64,000 bases of DNA from Thiotrichaceae bacterium. GTDB taxonomy: Bacteria > Pseudomonadota > Gammaproteobacteria > Thiotrichales > Thiotrichaceae. Shown one piece after another: positions 3,915 to 5,960 of the stretch (position 1 is the first letter of the stretch; every line of letters begins with the position of its first letter). The stretch spans positions 1 through 64,000 of the forward strand of contig WFRR01000098.1 in NCBI GenBank assembly GCA_015486375.1, given 5' to 3'. The position numbers were made by a program, and so were the translations under genes. The notes beneath the pieces are model-generated. The model did not search any database. It saw nothing but the letters and a program-made list of their open reading frames with translations, and was not told the DNA's origin.

Positions 3915-4748
3915 ATGAAATATCAACTACCCAATAATATTGTTAGTAGTGTGCAATCTGCGATACAAGAGGATATTGCCACAGGGGATGTTACCGCTAG
4001 TTTAATTGCTGAGGATACTCAAGCACAGGCACGCTTAATTTGTAGGGATAATGCGGTCATTTGTGGAGTTGCATGGGTTAAAGAGGTGTTTAAGCAGGTC
4101 GATTCCTCTATTCATTTGGATTGGTCAGTCGCTGATGGTGATCGTATTGAAGCCAATACTTATCTTTGTACTTTTACGGGCAAAGCTAAATCTATTTTAA
4201 GTGCGGAGCGAGTTGCTTTAAATTTTCTACAAACTTTATCTGCTACCGCAACGCAAACACAGCAGTATGTTAAAGCAATTTCTAACTCAAAAGCACAAAT
4301 TTTAGACACACGTAAAACATTGCCTAATTTACGTTTAGCTCAAAAATATGCAGTTTTATGTGGTGGGGGTAAAAATCATCGTATTGGCTTATACGATATG
4401 GTATTGATTAAAGAAAATCATATTATGGCAGCAGGTTCAATCAGCAATGCAATTAAGACTGCGCGTGAATATTATCCTGATTTAAAGGTGGAAGTCGAAA
4501 CAGAAAATCTAAGTGAATACTATGAAGCTGTGACAGCACAAGCGGATATTATTATGTTAGATAACTTCTCAAATACTGATATGTGCATAGCCGTAGCTCA
4601 TTCGCATGGGGATATATTACTTGAAGCATCAGGGGGTATTCAGTTGGATACGATTGCCACAATTGCGGCAACAGGAGTAGACTATATTTCCATTGGCGAT
4701 ATAACAAAAAATATCTATGCCATTGATTTATCACTACGTTTTTTATAA
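3915..4748 (+). CDS. nadC: Quinolinate phosphoribosyltransferase (decarboxylating)
   Basis: Converts quinolinate and PRPP to nicotinate mononucleotide, CO2 and PPi, the step that joins de novo NAD synthesis to the pyridine nucleotide pool. The 277-residue length fits the family. Key motifs are the early EDIATGDVTA, the SAERVALNFLQ segment, DTRKTLPNLRLAQKYAV with the catalytic Arg/Lys, GGGKNHRIGLYDMVLIKENH, EVETEN, and the C-terminal ASGGI and SIGDIT phosphate-binding loops. It stands alone, with minus-strand genes on both sides. nadA and nadB are not in the window. Confidence 0.97.
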   Translation: MKYQLPNNIVSSVQSAIQEDIATGDVTASLIAEDTQAQARLICRDNAVICGVAWVKEVFKQVDSSIHLDWSVADGDRIEANTYLCTFTGKAKSILSAERVALNFLQTLSATATQTQQYVKAISNSKAQILDTRKTLPNLRLAQKYAVLCGGGKNHRIGLYDMVLIKENHIMAAGSISNAIKTAREYYPDLKVEVETENLSEYYEAVTAQADIIMLDNFSNTDMCIAVAHSHGDILLEASGGIQLDTIATIAATGVDYISIGDITKNIYAIDLSLRFL

Positions 4749-4902: not shown

Positions 4903-4948
4903 TCTAAAAAGAAAGCCTCGGCTAAACAGGGGGGTAAAAACCGAGGCT
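4903..4948 (-). terminator. Rho-independent terminator with C-rich loop
   Basis: Perfect 8-bp stem (AGCCTCGG / CCGAGGCT) with a 19-nt loop, followed on the minus strand by TTTCTTTTT. On the plus strand no T-tract follows the stem, so the orientation is clear. The loop reads ACCCCCC on the minus strand. Confidence 0.75.
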
Positions 4949-5228
4949 AAACAACCAGACTTGGATTGGGGATGCCAAATCTGAAATCCGCTTTAGAACA
5001 AACAAAACACTGGGCTTTAGTGTTTACTTACCTTGTTGCTTCTAAACGCTGCGGAAACTGGTTACAACACATAACAACGTGATGTGTATTTCTAGCAAGA
5101 CGTGAGTCATTGACAACCAATATTTTGAAGTGTAGTCCAGTTCTAATAAAATGGATGTGCAAATAATACACTTCAGGTATGAAGTGCAAATATTGTGTTG
5201 TAATCACTCAATGTTCTGCTGATGTGGC
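4903..5228 (-). ncRNA. Candidate small non-coding RNA gene (unknown family)
   Basis: The 555-bp gap between nadC and bioD has no convincing protein gene but holds a complete minus-strand transcription unit by eye. There is a near-consensus sigma-70 promoter (5234-5261), about 320 nt of transcript, and an intrinsic terminator (stem 4914-4921 / 4941-4948 followed on the minus strand by TTTCTTTTT). Three more hairpins lie inside: 5005-5025 (7 bp), 5067-5087 (6 bp) and 5169-5186 (6 bp). The terminator loop contains a run of six C on the RNA strand. It does not resemble tmRNA, RNase P RNA, 6S or SRP RNA. No conservation data were available. Confidence 0.5.
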
Positions 5229-5233
5229 TTCAA

Positions 5234-5261
5234 TTTATAGTACTCATACAGCTACTGTCAA
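5234..5261 (-). promoter_or_regulatory. Near-consensus sigma-70 promoter for the candidate ncRNA
   Basis: On the minus strand a perfect -35 TTGACA (5261-5256) and a -10 TATAAA (5239-5234) are separated by 16 nt. It points into the 4.9-5.2 kb region where no protein gene is found. Predicted transcription start is near 5227. Confidence 0.6.
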
Positions 5262-5303: not shown

Positions 5304-5960
5304 TTATTGATTCTTATAATTGATTACTATTTGCACCAATTCTTTTACATTAAGAATAATAGGAATTTTTGTATATTCCTTTAAATCAGCTAAATTATTT
5401 ATTTTCTGATCAATTAACTGAGTTCGATTTAAAAAAACAGCTAAAACATTAAGCTTTCTATGGGTTGCTGCTTCAATTGTTAGTAAAATTTGACTGATAC
5501 ACCCTAAACGATCTTCGGCAACAATAATAATAGGTAAGGCTAATTTTTCTGCAAAATCAGCATTTAAACCATCCTCTGCCAGTGGTGAATAAAAGCCTCC
5601 TGCCCCTTCAATGTGTAAAAATTGATCATTATTGACATTATTAAAACAATGTTTTTTAAGTTGCTCTAATTTTACTCGTTGATTAACAAGTCGAGCCGCA
5701 CGCACGGGAGAGATAGCGGGTTTAAAGCGATATAAACAGGTTGTCTCAAGCTGTGTCTGTATCGATTTTCCTGCTGCAAGGATTAGTTTGCCACTATCAC
5801 TTTGTTCAACCGAGGCGGCAAAACCTGATTCAATCGGTTTTTTAGGCACAACATTAATATTTTTCTGTACCAAGTGACTAATTAATTGTTCTCCTAGCCA
5901 CGTTTTACCAACATCCGTATCCGTACCCGTAATAAAAACCCCTTTCTGACTCGTTTGCAT
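5304..5960 (-). CDS. bioD: Dethiobiotin synthetase
   Basis: ATP-dependent ligase that closes the ureido ring of dethiobiotin from 7,8-diaminopelargonate and CO2 in biotin synthesis. 218 residues, normal for BioD. The P-loop GTDTDVGKTWL (about 12-22), the KPIESGF substrate segment and HIEGAGGFYSPL (equivalent to the EGAGG motif) are visible. It lies 38 bp downstream of the RND pump gene on the same strand and may be co-transcribed with it by read-through; other bio genes are absent here. Confident by motif. Confidence 0.95.
   Translation of the reverse strand: MQTSQKGVFITGTDTDVGKTWLGEQLISHLVQKNINVVPKKPIESGFAASVEQSDSGKLILAAGKSIQTQLETTCLYRFKPAISPVRAARLVNQRVKLEQLKKHCFNNVNNDQFLHIEGAGGFYSPLAEDGLNADFAEKLALPIIIVAEDRLGCISQILLTIEAATHRKLNVLAVFLNRTQLIDQKINNLADLKEYTKIPIILNVKELVQIVINYKNQ

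Follow-up and report, generated by a model that had tools for sequence, protein, structure and literature searches.

Comparative sequence analysis confirms the predicted small RNA (sRNA) gene at positions 5261 to 4905 of the minus strand, in the interval between bioD and nadC, as a genuine and previously unannotated one; the window, by which we mean the whole 64,000-nt stretch of DNA analyzed, is taken from contig WFRR01000098.1 of a Thiotrichaceae assembly (GCA_015486375.1). The RNA is new and its kind is already known, that of sRNAs with C-rich loops. We consider it quite likely that it is a stand-alone, trans-acting regulator whose C-rich loops act on the G-rich ribosome-binding regions of mRNAs, and the sequence comparisons support its placement as the putative Thiotrichaceae member of a proposed family of engB/polA-linked C-rich-loop sRNAs that includes sX13, ErsA, anti-hemB, and unnamed relatives. 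This Thiotrichaceae sRNA is covered by no Rfam family and by no paper found in the literature searched.

The TTGACA-N16-TATAAA promoter claimed in the preliminary description is present at 5261 to 5234 (−). Its −35 element (TTGACA, 5256 to 5261) and −10 element (TATAAA, 5234 to 5239), both read from the sequence and separated by 16 nt, match 11 of 12 consensus bases, a score equaled by none of 40 shuffles of the gene's own upstream region; across the region, promoter-like matches occur at background level (14 found versus 15.3 expected). Three Thiothrix/Thiolinea homologues (L006, L009, and L010) have identical hexamers and spacer at the homologous place, and three further loci (L011, L012, and L037) have near-identical hexamers and spacing there. 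Over all 50 loci, promoter conservation is weak (mean score of 9.9 versus 9.4 in shuffles, with 8 loci standing out), so that backing for the promoter is confined to the window and the Thiothrix/Thiolinea-type loci. The spacing between promoter and conserved core varies widely from genus to genus. Taken together, promoter and terminator predict a minus-strand transcript of ~320 nt (5228 to 4905) that would start ~7 nt past the −10 element and end inside the U-tract, both ends being predictions. The terminator that had been claimed is likewise there, as a stem at 4948 to 4914 followed by the U-rich tail UUUCUUUUU (4906 to 4914), whose poly-U run is interrupted; an automatic terminator scan did not call it because its loop exceeds the allowed 8 nt.

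The whole predicted RNA folds more stably than any of 100 shuffles (z = −3.94), with the strongest value of the whole unit in its core (5060 to 4905; z = −4.67). As a conserved RNA, the unit that had been proposed holds for its 3′ half (~150 nt, 5057 to 4910) and not for its 5′ half, which is a structured, lineage-specific extension: this 5′ domain (5061 to 5228, −) forms a single long interrupted hairpin of ~170 nt (z = −3.39), its sequence is unconserved even in the nearest relatives, and BLAST matches fall nearly all within the 3′ half. The conserved core (4910 to 5057, −), which a covariance model trained on Thiotrichaceae only (R2) matches at 109 bits, consists of three hairpins, all on the minus strand. 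Hairpin 1 (4987 to 5055), supported by covariation, has a UCCGC/GCGGA base, an imperfect middle stem, and an ACACU/AGUGU top, and carries the loop AAAGCCC (5012 to 5018), of which AAGCCC is invariant in 49 aligned sequences. Hairpin 2 (4955 to 4985) has a stem of 9 to 10 bp, with 99.6% of cells paired and 4 of 10 pairs doubly changed, capped by CAUCCCCAAU (4965 to 4974), of which UCCCCAAUCC is invariant in the same alignment. Hairpin 3 (4914 to 4948) is the intrinsic terminator, with the stem GCCUCGG/CCGAGGC (8 of 9 pairs doubly changed family-wide) and a third C-rich loop, ACCCCCCU (4928 to 4935). Constant loop sequence on stems that are kept only as pairing is the signature expected of single-stranded contact sites. 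Few sequences have an altered loop 3: it reads UCUCC in L025 and is lost in L043 and L045, two Thiotrichaceae MAGs that retain loops 1 and 2 and have a terminator without the C5 loop (CCCCGCUUUUGAGCGGGG). Loop 3 may be dispensable in the L043/L045 lineage.

BLAST against 57 relatives matched most of those in the same family once each, the family sample including Thiothrix, Thiolinea, Thiofilum, Leucothrix, and Cocleimonas. Of 63 Thiotrichaceae genomes, 60 have exactly one R2 match, as do 45 of the 46 of good quality, in a search that in part recovers the model's own training sequences and hence gauges prevalence rather than homology; the three misses are two assemblies that are 67 to 85% complete and a third (G028) that is 93% complete. 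With promoter, structured RNA, and terminator in place and one copy per genome, the locus bears out the earlier reading of a complete small RNA gene. Compensatory changes in the stems, named beforehand as a check, are abundant. In an alignment of 49 distinct cores, scored against the structure of a single Thiothrix sequence, 86.3% of cells are paired and 31 of 39 pairs have changed on both sides; doubly changed cells number 208 (versus 82.5 in shuffles), and the covariation score of 0.370 (versus 0.233) was reached by none of 500 shuffles. Sliding the partner column by one halves this score or worse, although a structure taken from one of the aligned sequences is somewhat favored over slid versions, chiefly on cells paired. 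In the first alignment, the two forms of the terminator are offset against each other by one or two columns, so that RNAalifold did not pair it, and a hand-written structure was used for R2 instead; since the terminator pair counts contain misaligned cells, they are conservative. A typical Thiotrichaceae copy of the sRNA also occurs on a contig labeled Aquificaceae MAG 28 (L049; QOAQ01000096.1), which is probably mis-binned.

The sRNA has moved to its present site in the genus of the window. The usual Thiotrichaceae order is an HtrA/Do-type protease gene (named by sequence recognition), the sRNA, and then an opposed engB: the sRNA and engB (the latter by TIGR03598) were both found in 32 of the Thiotrichaceae genomes sampled, and in 28 of these engB is convergent and 58 to 273 nt away, the exceptions being the window genome, G004, G016, and G022. 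In the window, the upstream neighbor is bioD (5304 to 5960, −), on the same strand as the sRNA, and the downstream neighbor is the convergent nadC (3915 to 4748, +), both being ORFs named by sequence recognition, and L003, from the same genus, likewise has the sRNA between bioD and nadC. That the sRNA persists despite changed neighbors argues for a function in trans. In Thiotrichaceae, adjacency to polA has been lost, that gene lying elsewhere; in several other gammaproteobacterial families, it faces engB.

These arrangements bear on whether the locus encodes an element of some other kind. Its terminator and its same-strand position immediately downstream of bioD could suggest a cis-acting leader or 3′ untranslated region (UTR) element, such as a riboswitch, an attenuator, or a processed bioD 3′ UTR. 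We consider this very unlikely: the sRNA has its own promoter; nadC is convergent, so that the sRNA is not a nadC leader; and in other genera, with their different genes on both sides, the RNA is unchanged. An element that outlives its neighbors and has no sense-direction gene downstream is not a leader. A coding function has even less in its favor. Dual-function RNAs occur in other bacteria, and one ORF, of 59 aa from a GTG and the sole minus-strand ORF at the locus, overlaps the sRNA, which might therefore encode a small protein or have a dual function. However, no frame is kept among 52 homologues, in agreement with the earlier statement that the ~320 nt (predicted as 5228 to 4905) contain no convincing protein gene: the three frames are open through the core in 2, 13, and 5 of the 52, indels are not multiples of three, covariation is of the stem type, and the 5′ half is unconserved. 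The preliminary description had held that a conserved reading frame, in place of conserved stems, would count against an RNA gene; no such pattern is seen, and a small protein or dual-function RNA is the most improbable of the alternatives.

The sRNA is also distinct from RNAs with existing covariance models. That it is no standard housekeeping RNA, as had been proposed, agrees with an Rfam scan of the full window, which returned no covariance match to 6S, tmRNA, RNase P, or SRP; the scan at gathering threshold found nothing at the sRNA locus, and at loose E values (E ≤ 5) the window copy drew no match better than chance. The sole Rfam match in the window is a t44 RNA (RF00127; 17603 to 17693, +; 78.5 bits). 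The sRNA falls outside the Rfam families sX13, ErsA, and anti-hemB as those models are drawn, failing the score test for each. For sX13 (RF02232; gathering threshold of 50 bits), the window copy has no match at gathering or at E ≤ 5, and the best remote homologue, L115, which adjoins engB, reaches 36.9 bits. The sX13 RNA of Xanthomonas has three stable hairpins with loops of 4C, 4C, and 5C, lies at the polA locus, and has no clear ORF (PMC3771888). The window RNA resembles it in its three hairpins, the third being the terminator, each with a C-rich apical loop, and differs in its first loop (AAGCCC, with three Cs rather than four, on a long imperfect stem), in its 5′ domain of ~170 nt, and in its site between bioD and nadC. 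Anti-hemB (RF02837, Burkholderia RNA 7; gathering threshold of 49.5 bits) does not match the window copy; it is 81 nt long, and its first hairpin, with a CCUCCCU loop, is absent from the Thiotrichaceae RNA. Spot 42 (spf), which acts together with Hfq, shows positional likeness only and lacks the C-rich-loop architecture; a search with all Rfam families gave no Spot 42 covariance match to the window RNA. It is an independent sRNA encoded beside polA (PMC3771888). ErsA/Pseudomon-1 (RF01719; gathering threshold of 50 bits) scores only 16.6 bits (E = 1.6) on the window core and 26.3 bits on L081; it shares the C-rich terminator loop, yet it has two hairpins and is alignable with the window RNA at the terminator only. 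The site of ErsA is the polA-engB interval (PMC8575079).

Beyond the family, we ran R2, blind to all but its Thiotrichaceae training set, on 274 genomes of the class. It matched 28 gammaproteobacterial genomes outside Thiotrichaceae once each (19 to 39 bits, E values of 2e-7 to 0.06), and in 17 of the 23 of those genomes in which engB was located independently, engB lies 24 to 210 nt from the match, a proximity with a chance probability of roughly one in several thousand for each. When scored against Rfam, these remote loci reach up to 56 bits with anti-hemB, their scores with sX13 (up to 37 bits), ErsA, and ar14 being weaker. Most remote homologues beside engB score with anti-hemB at or just below its threshold (L098 and L103 are above it), and a search with anti-hemB only gave the same coordinates as R2 in 9 of 11 genomes sampled both ways. 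At the remote loci, the hairpins commonly follow one order: AAGCCC (present in some), then CCUCCCU, then UCCCCAA, and last a C-rich terminator. The ordered AAGCCC hairpin, UCCCCAA hairpin, and C-rich terminator are common to the Thiotrichaceae sRNA and the engB-adjacent group. Of five polA-engB intervals read from other families, four showed C-rich-loop hairpins and the fifth none. The pattern GCGCUNAAGCCCRGCGC, searched in 369 genomes, gave 20 matches (versus 3 for a reversed control), of which 10, distant families included, have engB at most 500 nt away and 3 more have the full architecture. The remaining 7, which lack a nearby engB as well as the other parts of the architecture, are likely chance matches.

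Anatomy and position together suggest that the Thiotrichaceae RNA would most likely act as sX13 does. The mRNAs that sX13 represses through its C-rich loops have G-rich (4G) motifs close to their start codons, and Hfq is not required (PMC3771888). In this reading, a sigma-70-type promoter would drive a ~320-nt transcript stopped at its own terminator; its last ~150 nt fold into three hairpins exposing the C-rich loops AAGCCC, UCCCCAA, and CCCCCC; and these loops would pair with G-rich stretches at or near the ribosome-binding sites of several mRNAs, thereby blocking translation. Base pairing to mRNAs is presumed here, as is any use of Hfq, the gene for which is present in the window's genome (G000:C124). 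As a conserved target, hfq itself, a target of sX13, is not favored: no GGGG or G-rich ribosome-binding site precedes it in the Thiotrichaceae examined. Among the window's 56 ORFs of at least 110 aa, one has GGGG at most 22 nt from its start, too few to test; as GGGG near starts is rare in this window of 38% GC, any real target set is expected to be small.

Two further readings concern what the loops contact and where the RNA came from. The loops might bind and titrate a protein, or act as a ligand sensor, in a decoy or stand-alone structured RNA, rather than pair with mRNAs: they are nearly invariant family-wide, as a protein-binding site would be, and three similar loops per RNA suit sequestration. 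A family-wide anti-ribosome-binding-site sequence, however, would be just as invariant, and sX13, the closest characterized RNA by position and form, targets G-rich mRNA motifs (PMC3771888), which leaves a protein or ligand role rather improbable. It is also unlikely, if slightly less so, that the likeness to anti-hemB, sX13, and ErsA is a convergence upon C-rich loops and a terminator by an RNA that arose independently in Thiotrichaceae. Unrelated sRNAs commonly have C-rich loops, the scores of the remote matches are modest, and the anti-hemB model also weakly matches an unrelated contig of the window's genome (G000:C4:10574-10653; 27.8 bits), where it may have found another C-rich hairpin or a chance resemblance; against this, the remote matches adjoin engB far more often than chance allows and present the AAGCCC and UCCCCAA hairpins in an unchanged order.

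The comparisons support homology of the Thiotrichaceae RNA to the engB-adjacent RNAs of other families taken together. For sX13, ErsA, and anti-hemB, the evidence favors, without proving, a single ancestor, a statement that does not extend to Spot 42. The broader proposal, that these three and the Thiotrichaceae RNA (perhaps with Spot 42 and alpha-r7) are one ancient engB/polA-side sRNA of early Proteobacteria, we place just short of an even chance; common descent, if true, would mean that an inherited RNA regulator is currently filed by Rfam as unrelated families. R2 provides a bridge in this respect, detecting, across many gammaproteobacterial families, RNAs beside engB that Rfam either splits (anti-hemB, sX13, ErsA) or misses, and the filamentous sulfur bacteria (Thiothrix, Leucothrix, Cocleimonas, and others) gain a near-universal, single-copy putative regulatory RNA. 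The authors of the sX13 study observed that Spot 42 and alpha-r7 are also at polA and asked whether the same is true of other bacteria (PMC3771888), a question about polA-locus RNAs that is now directly testable. The orientation of the engB-adjacent RNAs varies little, those of L082 (G049) and G127 being on the strand of engB and the other adjacent cases convergent. One genome has a tandem pair of anti-hemB-like matches ~215 nt apart (G140:C1:904217-904516), possibly a duplication.
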